A stretch of DNA of 64,000 bases, taken from positions 5,893,001 to 5,957,000 of the forward strand of contig NZ_JARUBN010000001.1 of NCBI RefSeq assembly GCF_029626265.1, given 5' to 3'. Below the pieces are notes generated by a model. That model was given only the letters and a program-made list of their open reading frames with translations. It had not been told where the DNA came from and searched no databases. Origin of the DNA: Micromonospora sp. WMMD1102 (GTDB taxonomy: Bacteria > Actinomycetota > Actinomycetes > Mycobacteriales > Micromonosporaceae). The first letter of the stretch is position 1; every line of letters starts with the position of its first letter. Shown piece after piece: positions 48,335-54,871 of the stretch. The translations under genes were made by a program, and so were the position numbers.

Positions 48335-49309
48335 TCAGTCCGCCGGCTCTCTGGCGGGTGGGTCGAGGAAGAGAGCCAGCCGGTCGACGCTTACCGCGCT
48401 GACCAGCAGCCGCTCCTTGCGGTTGCCGAGCAGCCGGGCCGTCCAGTCGACGAAGCCGCCGTCGCCGAGTTCCACCCGCTCGCCGTCGACCACAGCGCCG
48501 ATCTTGAAGCACCACCCGGTGTAGTAGCCCCGGCCACCGGAGCGGTCCGGGTCGTCGCGCACGACGACCCTCGGGGAGTCCGCCAGGGCGGCCCGAGCCG
48601 CCTCCGCGATCGGCACCGCCGCCGGGTCCAGCACGGTGAGGGCGATGTCGACCTCCTGCACCCCGGCCGCCTCCAGCGCCGCGCAGAGGATCCGCAACTG
48701 CTCGCCGCAGCTGCCCCGCTCGAAGGCCACACTTCCGGTGTCCCGGCCGGCGGTGACCAGGGCGAGGAGGCTGAAGTGCGCGAACCTGCCGGCCCCGGCG
48801 AACCGCTGGGCCCGGATCACCCGTTGCAGGGTGGCCAGCCGCACCGGCGGGGCCGAGCGGCCGTCCCGGGCGAGCAGTTCCCGGCGCCGGACCGCCGCCT
48901 CCAGCGCCAGCCCGTTGGTCGGATCGGCCGCCACCTCGCTGCCCCGGATCGTGGCGAGCACGTTGTTCTGGTTCAGTCCGGCGACCGCGGAGTGGGTGCC
49001 CAGCGGCGTGACCGGGGCGAGGGTGAGCAGGTCGTACTGGTCCGGGATGGCGGAGAGCAGCACGTCCTCGGCCCGGCGCAGCCGGCGGAACCCGGCCTGC
49101 GCCGGTGCGACGAACCGGTCCTCCGTGTAGCGGCGCAGCACGTCGGCCGGAGTCAGGAAGCCCGCCCGGGTCCGGAACGCGGCCAGCAGCAGCGTCACCA
49201 GGTCCGAACCGGACAGTCGTACGCCCAGGGTGCTCAGGATCTCGGCGCCGCCGGCCTGGCGCAGCACCCGGGCCAGCGCGGCCCCCTCCACCGTGTCAGG
49301 ATCCGCCAT
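48335..49309 (-). CDS. Orphan protein with class II synthetase-like motifs
   Basis: A 324-residue soluble protein. LTLAPVTPLGTHSAVAGLNQ, NNVLATIRGSEVAADPTNGL and, later, GGRGYYTGWCFKIG resemble the ordered core of histidyl-tRNA synthetase or HisZ-like proteins (which have a YYTG-x-F motif). Anticodon-binding and other tRNA domains are not visible, so it is unlikely to charge tRNA. The start ATG is the first in frame; TAGCGA lies six bases upstream. No known function; the resemblance is by eye and should be treated as a hint. Confidence 0.6.
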   Translation of the reverse strand: MADPDTVEGAALARVLRQAGGAEILSTLGVRLSGSDLVTLLLAAFRTRAGFLTPADVLRRYTEDRFVAPAQAGFRRLRRAEDVLLSAIPDQYDLLTLAPVTPLGTHSAVAGLNQNNVLATIRGSEVAADPTNGLALEAAVRRRELLARDGRSAPPVRLATLQRVIRAQRFAGAGRFAHFSLLALVTAGRDTGSVAFERGSCGEQLRILCAALEAAGVQEVDIALTVLDPAAVPIAEAARAALADSPRVVVRDDPDRSGGRGYYTGWCFKIGAVVDGERVELGDGGFVDWTARLLGNRKERLLVSAVSVDRLALFLDPPAREPAD

Positions 49310-49375: not shown

Positions 49376-49440
49376 GGATCACTCGGGTTCCAGACGCACC
49401 CGGTTCCAGCGCCGACCCGCCGGGTCACTCGGGTTCCAGG
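49376..49440. repeat. Direct repeat CACTCGGGTTCCAG and surroundings, twice
   Basis: Two copies (about 49379-49400 and 49425-49446) of CACTCGGGTTCCAGNCNCAC. The second holds the end and stop of the debranching-like gene, the first lies just downstream. Confidence 0.7.
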
Positions 49441-51464
49441 CACACCCGACCCCGGCCGAACGCGTCGGTCTTGCCCCACCGGCCGGGAATGTCGATCAGC
49501 TCGATCCGGCCGAGCCGCTCCGGGATCGCCGGGTCGACTGTCAGGTGGTCCTCGTGCGGCCGCAGCCCGAGCAGGGTACGCAGCAGCATCAGCGGTGCCC
49601 CCGCCGACGAGGAGAACGGCCCGCACGCCCGGGGGTACTGCACCGGATACTTGGTGAGCTGCCGGTCGTAGCCGGCGAACGCCTCCGGCAGCCGGCCGCC
49701 GAAATACCGGGACGCCTCGATCATCGTCACCGCCAGCCGGGCCGCCTGCTCTGTGAAGCCGTACTTGCGCAGCCCCCACGCGATGATGGAGTTGTCCCAC
49801 GGCCAGATCGCCCCGGTATGGTAGCCGATGGGGTTGTAGGCGGGGTTGTGTCGGGCCAGGCTCCGGACCCCCCAGCCGGAGAAGAGCGGCCGGCTGAGCA
49901 GGTGCTCGACGACCTGTTCGGCCCGGGACTCCTCCACGATGCCGCTCCAGAGCAGGTGCCCGATGTTCGAGGAGAGCGCGTCGACCTGACCGCCCTCGGC
50001 GTCCAGGGCGAGCGCGAAGTAGCCCCGGTCGGCGATCCAGAAGTCCCGGTTGAACCGGGCGCGCAGGTCGGCCGCCTCCCCTTCCAGCCGTTCCGCGTAC
50101 GCCGGGTCGTTCCAGAACCGCCGGGCCAGCCGGGCACCCCGGATCTTCGCGTCGTAGGCGTACCCCTGTAGTTCGCAGGTGGCCCGGGGCTTGCCCGGCA
50201 GCCGGCCGTCGGAGTACATGATGGCGTCCGGGGAGTCCTTCCAGCCCTGGTTGACCAGGCCGCTGGGACTTCGGCACTCGTACCAGACGTAGCCGTCGTC
50301 CATCAGGTTGCCGTACGTGTCGATCCACGCGAGCGCCGAGCGGGCCTCGTACTCCAGCATCCGCACCGTGGCGACGTCCCCGGTCCACCGCTCGTACTCG
50401 TCGAGCAGCACCACGAACAGCGGCGTGCAGTCCGCCGCCCCGTAGTACGTCGTGTACGCGCTGTCCTCGAAGCCGCCCGGCTCGCCGTACCGGACTTCGT
50501 GCAGGATCTTGCCCGGCTCCTCGTCCCGCAGGTCGTCGATCCGGCCGCCCTGCAACAGGGCGAGCACGCGCAGCGCGCTGAGGGCGATCTGTGGGGTGAA
50601 CGGCAGCGTCTGGAGGCCGGTGACGATGCTGTGCCGGCCGGAGACCGTCATGTACCAGGGCAGTCCGGTCGCCGTCAGCTTCCCCTGGCTGGTCAACCCG
50701 GTGTACTGCAACGCGGCAAGGTCGACCAGGCTGCGTCGGTAGGTCTCCTTCAGCGCGTCCGAGTCACAGGTCAGCTTCGGGGTACCGGTCAGCCACTCGC
50801 GCAGGTCGCGGTGCTTCTCCGGCCGGTTCCGCTGGTAGCCGCGCAGGTTCTCCCGGACGTCCCGGCCGCCGGCACCCCTGATCGTGCCGAGCGCCTGGAT
50901 GGTGGTGGACCACTTTCCGTGCGGGCCGAGTTCGACCCGGAAGGTGAGTCCCTCGGCGTCGATCTCGGCCGGCTCGCTGCTGGTGACGATCGTCTCGGAG
51001 ACGTGCTTGTCCCGCTGGTGACACAGCCGCAGCCCGCCCGAGGTGACGAACTTGGCGGTCCGTCGCGTAAGGGGGCGGGCCTCCCGGGCGTCGAAGACGT
51101 CCGCGAAGTCGCAGTCGACCTCCATCCGCAGCGTCAGCGTCACCGGCTCGTCCCGGTGGTTCAGCACCGTCAACTGCTCCTCGAAGGCGCCGCTGAGCGA
51201 CCGGTGCCGGATCACTGAGGTCTTCGCGTCGACGTAGTGGGTCGGCTCGCCGGGCACCAGGAAGAAACGGCACTCGAAGTACTGGAGGTCGTCGACGGAG
51301 AGTGCGTGCAGCCGCTCGCCGTCGATGGTGAGGACCCACTTGGAGAGGAAGCGGGTGTCCCAGGCGAAGAGCCCGGTCGGATAGTCGGGCGACGGGTCGA
51401 CGTCACCGCGGGTGTCGCTGAGCATGAAGGTGTTGCCGTCCAGGATGCTGACCAGGTTCTTCAC
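49425..51464 (-). CDS. Glycogen-debranching-enzyme-like protein, copy 1 (His278 at the GRDS site)
   Basis: A 679-residue protein with an N-terminal debranching-enzyme beta domain (about 1-230; LVSILDGNTFMLSDTRGDVD, GLFAWDTRFLSKW, GEPTHYVDAKTSVIRHRS) and a C-terminal (alpha/alpha)6 barrel (about 250-679; TPLFVVLLDEYERWTGD, PRATCELQGYAYDAK, NPIGYHTGAIWPWDNS). It matches the amylo-alpha-1,6-glucosidase-like group. Where copy 2 reads MFGRDS, this copy reads VSGRHS, so the Asp of that loop is His278 (CAC for GAC). Catalysis may be changed or lost. The GTG overlaps the SCP2-like stop as GTGA. Confidence 0.9.
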   Translation of the reverse strand: MKNLVSILDGNTFMLSDTRGDVDPSPDYPTGLFAWDTRFLSKWVLTIDGERLHALSVDDLQYFECRFFLVPGEPTHYVDAKTSVIRHRSLSGAFEEQLTVLNHRDEPVTLTLRMEVDCDFADVFDAREARPLTRRTAKFVTSGGLRLCHQRDKHVSETIVTSSEPAEIDAEGLTFRVELGPHGKWSTTIQALGTIRGAGGRDVRENLRGYQRNRPEKHRDLREWLTGTPKLTCDSDALKETYRRSLVDLAALQYTGLTSQGKLTATGLPWYMTVSGRHSIVTGLQTLPFTPQIALSALRVLALLQGGRIDDLRDEEPGKILHEVRYGEPGGFEDSAYTTYYGAADCTPLFVVLLDEYERWTGDVATVRMLEYEARSALAWIDTYGNLMDDGYVWYECRSPSGLVNQGWKDSPDAIMYSDGRLPGKPRATCELQGYAYDAKIRGARLARRFWNDPAYAERLEGEAADLRARFNRDFWIADRGYFALALDAEGGQVDALSSNIGHLLWSGIVEESRAEQVVEHLLSRPLFSGWGVRSLARHNPAYNPIGYHTGAIWPWDNSIIAWGLRKYGFTEQAARLAVTMIEASRYFGGRLPEAFAGYDRQLTKYPVQYPRACGPFSSSAGAPLMLLRTLLGLRPHEDHLTVDPAIPERLGRIELIDIPGRWGKTDAFGRGRVCLEPE

Positions 51465-51868
51465 GGTCGTTGCCCCCGCTCCCGGGCCACCCGGCGGGCC
51501 GCGAACCGCTCCCGGATCCGCTCCCGGGGATCCCGGGTGCCCGGCGGCGACGGAAAGGCCCGCCGGAACATCAGCAGCAGTGCCAGGCTGCCCCGCACGG
51601 TCAGCTCGTTCCGGTTGTACGCGGCGAGCACCTGCGTCTCGCCGGTCGCCAGGCGGTCGAAGAGCCCCCTGTCGGTGGCGACCACGCAGTCGGCCTCCCG
51701 CTCCTCGTGCGACACCAGCACGTTGCCCCGGTTGATGGCGACGAACCAGTGCTCGGCCCCGTCGTCGCGTTGCAGGTCGAACCGGATCGTCCCCCTGGAC
51801 GCGGTCGGCAGCAGCTCCGGCCCGTGCTGCTCGACCCGGGCGAAGAACTCGGCGGTCGGATCCGCCAT
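51461..51868 (-). CDS. SCP2-like small protein, copy 1
   Basis: A 135-residue protein with an SCP2/alkyl-sulfatase-C-like fold pattern (FFARVEQHGPELLPTASRGT, RFDLQRDDGAEHWFVAINRG, ADCVVATDRGLFDRLATGE, then NRNELTVRGSLALLLMF). Such domains bind hydrophobic ligands. The extreme C-terminus is Arg/Pro-rich. GGGAGG precedes the ATG. It is coupled with the debranching-like gene by GTGA, and copy 2 has the same arrangement, suggesting a partner role. Confidence 0.75.
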   Translation of the reverse strand: MADPTAEFFARVEQHGPELLPTASRGTIRFDLQRDDGAEHWFVAINRGNVLVSHEEREADCVVATDRGLFDRLATGETQVLAAYNRNELTVRGSLALLLMFRRAFPSPPGTRDPRERIRERFAARRVARERGQRP

Positions 51869-51929
51869 CGGTGCCTCCCTTCCGACTCGTCCGGCACACG
51901 CATCCGCTGGTGCTGGGGGGGACACCTGG

Positions 51930-53993
51930 CTAGTCGAGCATGTGCGGGGGCGTCTGGCCGTGCTCCGCTCGGCCGCGCCCGAAGGCGTCGATCAGACCCC
52001 ACCGGCCGGGGATGTCCAGCAGTTCCATCCGGCCCATGTGCTCCGGCAGGGCCGGGTCGACGACCAGGTGCTCGCCGTGCGGGTCGAGGCCCAGCAGGGT
52101 CCGGATCAGCAGCATCGGGGTTCCGGTGGACCACGCCTGCGGGCTACAGGCCGTCGGGTACTGCACCGGGTACTTCGTCAGCGCCCGGTCGTAGCCGGCG
52201 AACGCCTCCGGGAGCCGGCCGCCGAAGTACCGCGCCGCGTCGATCATGGCCTCGGCGATCCGGCCCGCCTCGTGCCGGAAGCCGTAGCGGCGCAGCCCCC
52301 AGGCGATCAGCGAGTTGTCGAACGGCCAGACCGTGCCGACGTGGTATCCGATCGGGTTGTACCGGCCCTCCCCCTCGGCCATGGTCCGCACCCCCCAGCC
52401 GGAGAAGAGCCGTGGACCGAGCAGGTGCTCGGCGACCTTCGCGGCCCGGTTCTCGTCGACGATGCCGCTCCAGAGCAGGTGCCCCATGTTCGAGGTGAGC
52501 GCGTCGACCTGGCCACCCTCGGTGTCCAGGGCCAGCGCGTAGTACTCGCCGTCGGCGACCCAGAAGTCCCGGTTGAACCGCTGCTTCAGCTCCGCCGCCT
52601 CCCGCTCCAGGCGGTCGGCGTAGACCGGGTCCTGCCAGTAGAGCCGGGCCAGCCGGGCGCCGCGCATCTTCGCGTCGTACGCGTAGCCCTGTAGCTCGCA
52701 GGTGGCCCGGGGGAACGCCGGCAGCCGCCCGTCGGAGTACGAGATGGCGTCCCAGGAGTCCTTCCAGCACTGGTTCTCCAGTCCGTTGCGCAGGTTCCGC
52801 CGCTCGAACCAGACGTAGCCGTTGCCCATCATGTCCGCGTACCGGTCGATCCAGTTCAGCGCGGCCCGCGCCTCCTGCTCCAGCGTCATGACCAACTCGA
52901 CGTCCCCGGTCCACTGCTCGTACTCGTCGAGCAGGATCACGAAGAGCGGGGTGGAGTCGGCGGAGCCGAAGTAGGGCGAGTGCGGCTGCTCCTCGAACGC
53001 GGTCGACTCGCCGTACCGGATCTCGTGCAGGATCTTGCCCGGCTCGCGTTCCCGGAAGTCGTCCAGGCTGACTCCCTGGGTCATCGCCAGATAGCGCAGC
53101 GTCGGCCCGGCGAGTTCCGGAGTGAACGGCAGGGTCTGCAAGCAGGTGATCAGGCTGTCCCGGCCGAACATGGTCATGAACCAGGGCAGGCCGGCGGCCG
53201 GCAGTGGCGGCCCGGAGAGCAGCGGCGTGTACCGCAGCGCGGCCAGGTCGATCAGGCTGCGCCGGTACGTCTCGGTCAGCGGCTCGCTGTCACTCGTCAG
53301 CTTCGGCGCCCGCTCCATCCACTCGTCCAGGTCCCGGCGCAGCGTCTCCGGGGACCGGCTGCGGTGCCGCTGGATGCTGAGCCGGATGTCCCGGCCACCG
53401 GCCCCTTCCACCAGGGTTTCCACCCGCAGCCGGGTCTGCCACTGCTGGTGCGCCCCGATCCGCAGGGTGAAGCTCAACCCGCCCCGGTCGAAATCGGCGG
53501 GCGCGGTCGAGGTGATGACCGCTTCCCGCCGGAACGTCTCCCGCTGGTAGCAGAGCCGCAGCCGGTCCTGCTCCACGAACACGCTGGTGCCGCCGGCCTT
53601 CTCCCGGACGTCCTTGATTTCGAAGAGGTCGGCGAAGTCGCTCTCCACGTTGATCCGGACGGCCAACTCGACCGCCCGGTCCTCGTGGTTGAGCACGGTC
53701 AGGTCCTCGACGAAGCTGCCGCCGACCGTACGGTGCCGGATCACCGACAACTTGGCGTCCACGTAGTGCGTCGGCTCGCCCGGGACCAGGAAGAACTGCG
53801 ACTCGAAGTACTGGAGGTCGTCCACGGACAGCACGCTGAGCCGGTGCCCGTCGAGGGTCAGTTCCCACTTGGAGAGGAACCGGGTGTCGAACGAGAACAG
53901 TCCGGTCGGGAAGACCGGCGACGGGTCGATGTCGCCCCGGTCGTCGCTGACCACGAAGGTGTTGCCGTCGAGGATGCTGACCAGTGGTCTCAT
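51930..53993 (-). CDS. Glycogen-debranching-enzyme-like protein, copy 2
   Basis: A 687-residue paralogue of copy 1 with the same two domains (LVSILDGNTFVVSDDRGDID, GLFSFDTRFLSKWELTLDG; TPLFVILLDEYEQWTGDVEL, PRATCELQGYAYDAK, NPIGYHVGTVWPFDNS). LPWFMTMFGRDSLITCLQT keeps Asp279 in the GRDS loop. It is expected to remove alpha-1,6 branches or act on related glucans in the cytoplasm. The ATG overlaps the SCP2-like stop as ATGA. Confidence 0.93.
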   Translation of the reverse strand: MRPLVSILDGNTFVVSDDRGDIDPSPVFPTGLFSFDTRFLSKWELTLDGHRLSVLSVDDLQYFESQFFLVPGEPTHYVDAKLSVIRHRTVGGSFVEDLTVLNHEDRAVELAVRINVESDFADLFEIKDVREKAGGTSVFVEQDRLRLCYQRETFRREAVITSTAPADFDRGGLSFTLRIGAHQQWQTRLRVETLVEGAGGRDIRLSIQRHRSRSPETLRRDLDEWMERAPKLTSDSEPLTETYRRSLIDLAALRYTPLLSGPPLPAAGLPWFMTMFGRDSLITCLQTLPFTPELAGPTLRYLAMTQGVSLDDFREREPGKILHEIRYGESTAFEEQPHSPYFGSADSTPLFVILLDEYEQWTGDVELVMTLEQEARAALNWIDRYADMMGNGYVWFERRNLRNGLENQCWKDSWDAISYSDGRLPAFPRATCELQGYAYDAKMRGARLARLYWQDPVYADRLEREAAELKQRFNRDFWVADGEYYALALDTEGGQVDALTSNMGHLLWSGIVDENRAAKVAEHLLGPRLFSGWGVRTMAEGEGRYNPIGYHVGTVWPFDNSLIAWGLRRYGFRHEAGRIAEAMIDAARYFGGRLPEAFAGYDRALTKYPVQYPTACSPQAWSTGTPMLLIRTLLGLDPHGEHLVVDPALPEHMGRMELLDIPGRWGLIDAFGRGRAEHGQTPPHMLD

Positions 53994-54364
53994 GGCCGTT
54001 GCCCCCGCTGCAGCACCCACTGCCGGGGTTCGTGCGCACCGGGCGGGCCGGGCACCAGGTGGTTCAGGTAGGGGAACAGTTGGAGGTCCCCCTCGACGGT
54101 GAGCCGGTTGCGCAGCAGCGCCGCGAACGTGTCCGCCTCGCCGGACGCGATCAGGTTGAAGAAGGTCCGGTCGGTCCGGATGGTGCAGTCCGCCGGCCGG
54201 GCCGCCTGGGCGGCGCTCACACTGCCGGCGCTGAAGACCAGCAGCCAGACGTCGACGCCGGTGTCCGATTCGAGTTCGAAGCGGACGGTTCCCCGGATCT
54301 TGCTCAGCAGCGGCTCCGGGGGCCGGTGGTTGAGCCCTTCGAAGAACTGCGTGCTCTGGTCCAT
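53990..54364 (-). CDS. SCP2-like small protein, copy 2
   Basis: A 124-residue relative of the copy 1 protein (TQFFEGLNHRPPEPLLSKIR, VRFELESDTGVDVWLLVFSA, ADCTIRTDRTFFNLIASGEA, LLRNRLTVEGDLQLF). The last three residues, QRP, are shared with copy 1 (GQRP), as is the overlap with the next gene. It is the first gene of the second cassette. Confidence 0.75.
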   Translation of the reverse strand: MDQSTQFFEGLNHRPPEPLLSKIRGTVRFELESDTGVDVWLLVFSAGSVSAAQAARPADCTIRTDRTFFNLIASGEADTFAALLRNRLTVEGDLQLFPYLNHLVPGPPGAHEPRQWVLQRGQRP

Positions 54365-54454: not shown

Positions 54455-54871
54455 TCAGTTGTTCGGTTCATCGGCGCTGATGTCGGCGAGCACGGACTGC
54501 GGTTCCCGCTCGACCGCGAGGTCGCCGAGGGAGACCAGGCCGATCAACCGGCCCTCCTCCACCACCGGCAACCGCCGTACGCCGTACGTGCGCATCAGGT
54601 CGGCGGCGGCGACCGCGTCGTCGTACTGCGACACCGTGATGACGTCCTGGCTGAGGATCTCGCTCAACGTGGCGCTGGACGGGTTCAACTGTTCCGCCAC
54701 CCCGCGCACCGTGATGTCGCGGTCGGTGACGATTCCGATCACGTCGTCCCCGTTGGTCACGATCACGTCGCCGATGGCGCTGTCCCGCATCTCCTGGGCG
54801 GCAGCGGTGAGCGTGTCGCCGCCGTCCATGGTCACCAGGCGGGTCGTCATGAACTCTCCGACGGTCGTCAT
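54455..54871 (-). CDS. CBS-domain pair protein
   Basis: A 138-residue protein made of two CBS domains (VGEFMTTRLVTMDGGDTLTA, VTNGDDVIGIVTDRDI; then LSEILSQDVITVSQYDDAVA, LPVVEEGRLIGLVSLGDLA). Such pairs bind adenine nucleotides and act as energy or redox sensors. It lies upstream of the SCP2-like/debranching cassettes on the same strand. GAGGGGAGCAGG precedes the ATG. The DNA upstream (54900-55110) is unusually purine-rich and holds no gene. Confidence 0.94.
   Translation of the reverse strand: MTTVGEFMTTRLVTMDGGDTLTAAAQEMRDSAIGDVIVTNGDDVIGIVTDRDITVRGVAEQLNPSSATLSEILSQDVITVSQYDDAVAAADLMRTYGVRRLPVVEEGRLIGLVSLGDLAVEREPQSVLADISADEPNN

Follow-up and report, generated by a model that had tools for sequence, protein, structure and literature searches.

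The described enzymes closest to the locus considered here, a pair of tandem two-gene cassettes (A and B) in Micromonospora sp. WMMD1102, each resemble only part of it. Each cassette consists of a small gene for an SCP2-domain protein and a large gene for a glycogen debranching-like enzyme (GDE), and both lie in a 64,000-nucleotide stretch of contig NZ_JARUBN010000001.1 (positions 5,893,001 to 5,957,000), hereafter the window. In its catalytic region, the enzyme of cassette A (GDE-A) resembles the archaeal-type amylo-alpha-1,6-glucosidase of PDB entry 7vma (profile E=6e-105), which keeps the GRD, WKDS, LPE, and PQAWS motifs, whereas the SCP2 part has no place in the profile match to this 620-residue chain; a literature search on 7vma found nothing relevant. 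The glucosylglycerate hydrolase MhGgH (MgH/GH63, PF22422), which is not known to carry a GDE_N_bis domain or SCP2, differs from GDE-A in acting on a small glycoside, while the catalytic part of GDE-A matches the same family (E=5.6e-13). In MhGgH, the sugar in subsite -1 is held by Asp43, and the D43A variant shows neither detectable activity nor bound substrate; the acid and base are proposed to be Asp182 and Glu419, while Gln434 and Trp436 make further contacts with the sugar (PMC6608630). The succession of these residues (a sugar-binding Asp, then the acid Asp, the base Glu, and Gln-x-Trp) is shared with GDE-A. An SCP2-like domain is also joined to a hydrolase in alkyl sulfatases (C-terminal domain, PF14864), which the cassette SCP2s match weakly, although this is another enzyme class and the window proteins score below the Pfam cut-off. 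Finally, the plant isoamylases ISA1/ISA2 (GH13, without SCP2) include a non-catalytic debranching paralogue that is kept by selection and faster evolving (PMC12510319), to which we liken the enzyme of cassette B (GDE-B); an ISA1/ISA2 heteromer has been shown (PMC12516185), whereas one of GDE-A and GDE-B is at most a candidate.

Within the subfamily to which the window's enzymes belong, SCP2 and GDE genes are rarely separated, co-diverge, and are naturally fused in both orders. When one genome per species was scanned with a three-paralogue alignment, the best 80 of 471 relatives gave 79 loci (cited by L numbers, and genomes by G numbers), in 77 of which SCP2 is directly upstream of the GDE or in frame with it; in the two misses (L072 and L094), the locus begins about 150 nt or less from the end of its contig. 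The locus records span Micromonosporaceae, Agromyces, Nocardia, Streptosporangiaceae, Gaiellaceae, Acidimicrobiia, a Chloroflexota metagenome-assembled genome (MAG), and a MAG labelled Sphaerobacter. Together with those of the window's own genome, they provide 87 separate cassettes, in which the two genes overlap by 4 nt in 58 cases and by 1 nt in 11, and lie within 10 nt in 80. The family, class, and phylum genome sets that we searched further are samples. Across 61 family genomes, SCP2 lies at most 160 nt upstream in 68 of the 72 GDE matches scoring at least 985 bits; one of the remaining four has SCP2 at 1.4 kb and three lack it (one lying at the end of a contig, the others being orthologues in G475 and G512). 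The reverse holds for 80 strong cassette-type SCP2 matches: 75 have a GDE match within 160 nt and one at 1.4 kb, and of the other four, one stands before a broken GDE, one before a contig-cut GDE, and two close to a contig start, at distances of about 400 and 1,040 nt. Among 197 genomes of the class, SCP2 is upstream in 11 of 13 GDE matches of at least 870 bits (one as an N-terminal fusion), with G165 carrying a C-terminal fusion and G212 no SCP2, while the phylum search found SCP2 present in G028 and absent in G138 and G383; at most five candidates per genome were scored in the class search and at most three in the phylum search, which makes the per-genome counts lower bounds.

That the two domains are naturally fused in either order argues strongly that they work together. 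The SCP2 and GDE domains occupy a single frame in L037 and L065; with L037 as query, 18 of the best 120 matches listed are N-terminal SCP2 fusions, and with L132 (G165) as query, 76 of the best 120 listed are C-terminal ones, the SCP2 domains being located with a profile rebuilt from those matches. In a Pfam scan of seven fusions, SCP2 is over the cut-off in all seven, and several fusions are entered in databases as 'glycogen debranching enzyme/putative sterol carrier protein'. Among 125 distinct cassettes, a non-random set in which some loci were picked because they looked fused or tandem, the SCP2 and GDE distance matrices are correlated (Mantel r 0.69; highest value among 999 permutations 0.094), and for 61 cassettes the one closest by GDE is also the closest by SCP2. 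The physical or functional partnership proposed in a preliminary description of this DNA is thus strongly supported by adjacency, by fusion in both orders, and by co-divergence. The observation named there as speaking against it, that SCP2 is usually absent beside orthologous enzymes, is not seen in this subfamily, although it holds for other GDE_N_bis subfamilies, among them that of two of the six GDE genes in the window's genome.

That genome (8.92 Mb) has six GDE_N_bis genes and seven Pfam SCP2 matches. Beyond the window, the GDE genes at C1:8478809 and C1:7230357 each have an SCP2 gene directly upstream (28.4 and 22.1 bits, respectively; cut-off 21.3), and cassettes make up four of the six GDE genes; the SCP2 gene at C1:7230357 escaped the genome-wide Pfam SCP2 search and is additional to that search's list. 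The other two GDE genes are of a different subfamily without a cassette-type SCP2 directly upstream, one having an SCP2 match about 7.4 kb away. Because of these two further cassettes and the recurrence in other genomes, the pairing is not attributable to chance. The third and fourth cassettes may be later arrivals, judging from the low third-position GC of their GDE genes (0.78 at C1:8478809 and 0.76 at C1:7230357, compared with 0.96 for GDE-A and 0.94 for GDE-B). Upstream of the third (C1:8478426-8480833; L014:6936-12194) is an open reading frame (ORF) that includes an integrase-core (rve) domain, which together with the GC of 0.78 suggests horizontal gain.

Both partners match profiles of their families. 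SCP2-A and SCP2-B score 51.4 and 39.5 bits, respectively, against Pfam SCP2 (PF02036; cut-off 21.3), and all 26 SCP2-A homologues listed carry a precomputed PF02036 assignment; when eight further cassette SCP2s were scanned with this model, that of L025 (18.8 bits) alone fell under the cut-off. A profile of the cassette SCP2s matches mammalian SCP2 in the PDB (E=4e-11) as well as solved fatty-acid-binding SCP2-type chains, and in the 33-row SCP2 alignment F7, F8, A58, R85, and G92 are invariant. The enzymes match GDE_N_bis (PF14742; E=1.4e-48 for GDE-A and E=5e-49 for GDE-B) and, more weakly, MGH1-like (PF22422; E=1.4e-14 for GDE-B), and GDE-A is over the cut-off of 21 for GDE_C (30.2 bits) with GDE-B just below it (20.8 bits). 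"Glycogen debranching enzyme" should nevertheless be taken as a putative name for these proteins, given by annotation only.

The two window enzymes, which the preliminary description took as equivalent, turn out to differ at the active site: copy B has lost the proposed substrate-holding residues. GDE-A has GRD, WKD, LPE, and QAW all in place (in FGRDS, WKDS, LPEAF, and PQAWS), whereas GDE-B (SGRHS, WKDS, LPEAF, and PFSSS) keeps WKD and LPE but carries the changes D279H, Q619F, and W621S in GDE-A numbering. We infer, from motif order rather than a computed alignment, that D279, D412, E596, and Q619/W621 of GDE-A would correspond to the MhGgH sugar-holding Asp, acid, base, and Gln/Trp pair. Despite the loss of conserved active-site residues, GDE-B and the five orthologues examined are full-length and evolve under purifying selection. 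These six B copies come from the window, from Plantactinospora (L020, L021, and L023), and from two genomes of the window's genus (L215 and L216); in all six, the GRD Asp has become His and the QAW element is lost, and all six ORFs are open, each encoding 679 aa. The ratio of nonsynonymous to synonymous substitution rates (dN/dS, NG86) spans 0.21-0.48 among the B copies and 0.19-0.35 among the A copies. Among the 125 distinct cassettes, 21 are altered in at least one active-site position and 13 of these lack the proposed acid, which is replaced by V, N, G, C, S, or E. A link between N-terminal fusion and loss of the acid was considered and rejected: the acid is lost in 7 of 10 fused and 6 of 115 separate cassettes, a comparison that ignores kinship and uses loci partly picked as fused-looking; the signal is weaker in the list of the best 120 matches to L037 (any motif altered in 7 of 18 N-terminal fusions and 8 of 102 others, kinship again ignored); and alteration is scarce in C-terminal fusions, with only 2 of 76 altered among the matches listed.

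Some individual loci deserve mention for their own sake. At L226:1112-7748 (G486:C42), two SCP2-GDE fusions stand in tandem, the first with an intact active site and the second with an altered one, repeating the window's two-cassette layout in fused form; the same genome has eight GDE matches with SCP2 upstream, two being pieces on one contig. The SCP2-GDE fusion at L165:4381-6816 (G232:C1, about 5859401-5861809) has five of six checked active-site positions changed (D279E, D412N, E596A, Q619Y, and W621P) and is, by its residues, apparently a complete pseudoenzyme. Upstream of the GDE in G475 and G512 (L228 and L229) is a stretch, mostly common to both, that is crowded with stop codons when read in the coding direction. 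At L230:3186-4568 (G524), the SCP2 gene is open and the GDE is fragmented across different frames. Open frames at G293:C5:242095-242844 and G187:C1:75362-76099 contain two cassette-like SCP2 matches each, and the class search gave no GDE match in either genome. Carriage of the cassette on plasmids was dropped as an idea, as all 175 plasmid records matched at below 60% identity (37-43% in the ten listed) and belong to other GDE subfamilies.

The layout of the locus is given in Table 1. On the minus strand, transcription runs from the CBS gene through SCP2-A, GDE-A, SCP2-B, and GDE-B to the gene at 48335-49309, and A and B share 64% identity between the enzymes and 37% between the SCP2 proteins. 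The ORFs and the Pfam SCP2 and GDE_N_bis matches bear out what the preliminary description had read from this DNA, namely two SCP2-like and debranching-like gene pairs in tandem, stop/start overlaps of ATGA (in A) and GTGA (in B), and a CBS gene upstream. Start codons were set by rule, and E-values of purpose-built profiles were computed in scripts. A Pfam scan of the gene at 48335-49309 gave nothing above the curated cut-off and only a sub-threshold match to histidyl-tRNA synthetase; its cluster comprises the window, L020, L021, and L023.

Table 1. Features of the two SCP2-GDE cassettes and their flanking genes (window coordinates).
Feature	Position	Strand	Basis or remark
SCP2-A: SCP2-domain protein, 124 aa	53990..54364	-	PF02036 E=1.5e-13
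GDE-A: predicted GDE_N_bis/MGH1-like alpha-glucosidase, 687 aa	51930..53993	-	FGRDS, WKDS, LPEAF, PQAWS intact
ATGA: overlap of SCP2-A stop and GDE-A start	53990..53993	-	sequence
SCP2-B: SCP2-domain protein, 135 aa	51461..51868	-	PF02036 E=7.5e-10
GDE-B: GDE-A paralogue, 679 aa, active site altered	49425..51464	-	64% identity, motif tables
GTGA: overlap of SCP2-B stop and GDE-B start	51461..51464	-	sequence
GDE-B His codon opposite GDE-A Asp279 (GRD to GRH)	50631..50633	-	proposed subsite -1 sugar-holding residue
GDE-B Phe-Ser-Ser codons opposite GDE-A Gln619-Ala-Trp621	49608..49616	-	sequence comparison
CBS-domain gene, upstream of cassette A	54455..54871	-	PF00571 E=2e-24
Downstream gene without assigned function, adjoining cassette B, 324 aa	48335..49309	-	cluster of 4 loci

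In six of the seven Micromonospora-type loci compared, genes for an M16 peptidase and/or a semialdehyde dehydrogenase lead into one cassette (families by Pfam, with CBS included in these runs where gene calls found it), while in L020, L021, and the window the same upstream genes lead into two, an arrangement of the Plantactinospora type. The CBS gene cluster is confined to 13 of 82 GDE-bearing loci, the window included, and CBS is therefore a feature of this locus rather than of cassettes generally. Of the earlier phrase "tandem duplicated", the first word stands, whereas local duplication is plausible and not proved: a quick free tree (92 rows) put A and B apart, while A and B as a single clade are not rejected (approximately unbiased test, p-AU 0.622) and the constrained tree is 10 log units better than the quick one. 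The enzyme of L044, split over two frames, was left out of the first tree. In four Micromonospora loci (L032, L034, L043, and L047), an altered copy is head to head with an intact one, and these altered copies form a clade separate from the B clade. By parsimony, the altered state takes five changes with 92 rows (12 altered, one solely by Ala to Gly in PQAWS) and six on the 125-row tree (21 altered); only two changes are forced by well supported branches, and long branches leave the rest unsure.

The metabolic setting makes a glucan substrate plausible, as the window's genome encodes GlgE and GlgB for the synthesis of branched alpha-glucan and has no match over the cut-off for GlgX. GlgX (TIGR02100) is an isoamylase-type enzyme of the GH13 family, like the cassette in its proposed role on branched alpha-glucan; none of its four matches in this genome is over the cut-off, the best reaching 49 bits (against 640.9) in a GlgB ORF. 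Neighbouring genes were surveyed in 27 loci mostly outside Micromonospora, where 167 of 214 genes predicted by a crude GC-by-codon-position method were scanned and the 25 commonest families listed per scan. Recurrence is weak (G6PD 4, GH15 3, and MFS 10 of 167), too weak to count as proof, and the neighbourhood was set aside as a clue to function. Membership in a hypoxia/dormancy (DosR-like) regulon was likewise dropped, as its palindrome GGGACNNNNGTCCC shows no enrichment in the window (6 matches with at most one mismatch versus 12.2 expected); it occurs exactly in 5 of 128 loci.

We lean, if only slightly, towards a dedicated two-part glycoside hydrolase, composed of an SCP2 subunit and a debranching-type alpha-glucosidase, with GDE-B as a non-hydrolytic sister. 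The SCP2-fold subunit would be translationally coupled to the enzyme and bound to it, and may hold a hydrophobic ligand or else stabilise or regulate its partner. GDE-A would act by an inverting acid/base mechanism, freeing glucose from a branched alpha-glucan or from a related alpha-glucoside, and GDE-B may bind glucan or GDE-A, as ISA2 does with ISA1, a likeness that we offer as the nearest working analogy and not as membership. Several observations weigh against this. The fold does not need SCP2, which is missing from 39 of the 45 family-genome GDE matches of 500-950 bits (the six with SCP2 being five partial matches and the altered G232 fusion), and closer kin also lack it, namely G475 and G512 (one shared orthologue), G212, G138, and G383. 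The residue mapping onto MhGgH follows motif order, and GDE-B, in which WKDS and LPE (proposed acid and base) are retained, might still have a substrate. As a simple debranching substitute, moreover, the cassette is disfavoured: among the 61 genomes, GlgX occurs in 13 of the 28 that have a cassette and in 18 of the 33 that do not (Fisher p=0.61), and with no inverse association the idea that the cassette replaces GlgX in general was dropped. The five genomes that manage without SCP2 would also suit an SCP2 that is a mere folding or stability partner without ligand, the enzyme being an ordinary alpha-glucosidase, and fusion in either order fits such a passive module; we nevertheless judge this unlikely, as the five invariant SCP2 residues across 33 rows and the retention of SCP2 beside altered enzymes both argue for a specific role.

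What that role might be, and what GDE-B does, invite further alternatives. SCP2 could deliver or sense lipid, binding a fatty acyl chain or glycolipid and directing the enzyme to a lipid-linked glucan, as the preliminary description suggested, or coupling glucan breakdown to lipid status; SCP2-family membership and the profile matches to solved SCP2 and fatty-acid-binding chains are in keeping with this, as is a PlsC-type acyltransferase gene (PF01553 E=1.1e-29 in L031) downstream of the single cassette in Micromonospora-type loci. Yet the few recurring neighbours include carbohydrate genes (G6PD and GH15) and no lipid-enzyme family is prominent among the families listed, and we regard this as possible but on the improbable side. 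Its boldest form, in which an acyl or glycolipid ligand of SCP2 would switch or aim the glucosidase and tie glycogen use in Actinomycetota and Chloroflexota to lipid state, while one of two duplicated cassettes would repeatedly lose catalysis and turn into a lipid- or glucan-binding regulatory subunit for its active partner, making a bacterial equivalent of ISA1/ISA2, is a speculation that we would not expect to hold in full. As for GDE-B, purifying selection and the retention of WKDS and LPEAF would be consistent with activity on a new substrate, its altered -1 subsite taking another sugar or linkage, but D279 and QAW are changed in every B orthologue examined and 13 of the 21 altered cassettes lose the proposed acid, which looks less like specificity tuning and makes this doubtful. 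A decaying pseudogene caught before loss would account for a dN/dS somewhat above that of A; however, all six orthologues are open, identical in length, and altered at the same two sites, and SCP2-B is retained too, so that decay seems very improbable.

Our literature search, whose coverage mostly leaves out subscription journals, turned up no work that connects SCP2 with a debranching enzyme or a glycoside hydrolase, the few papers listed looking unrelated from their titles and the openings of their abstracts, and the link by gene pairing and both-order fusion is undescribed in the literature found, although databases already name single fusions. If the two proteins bind, those enzymes of this subfamily that are annotated plainly as debranching enzymes could be assayed fairly only together with their SCP2 partner. 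The altered-site copies that keep an SCP2 gene open a way to study the partner's role where catalysis is lost, and they offer a bacterial model for the non-catalytic debranching paralogues known from starch synthesis.

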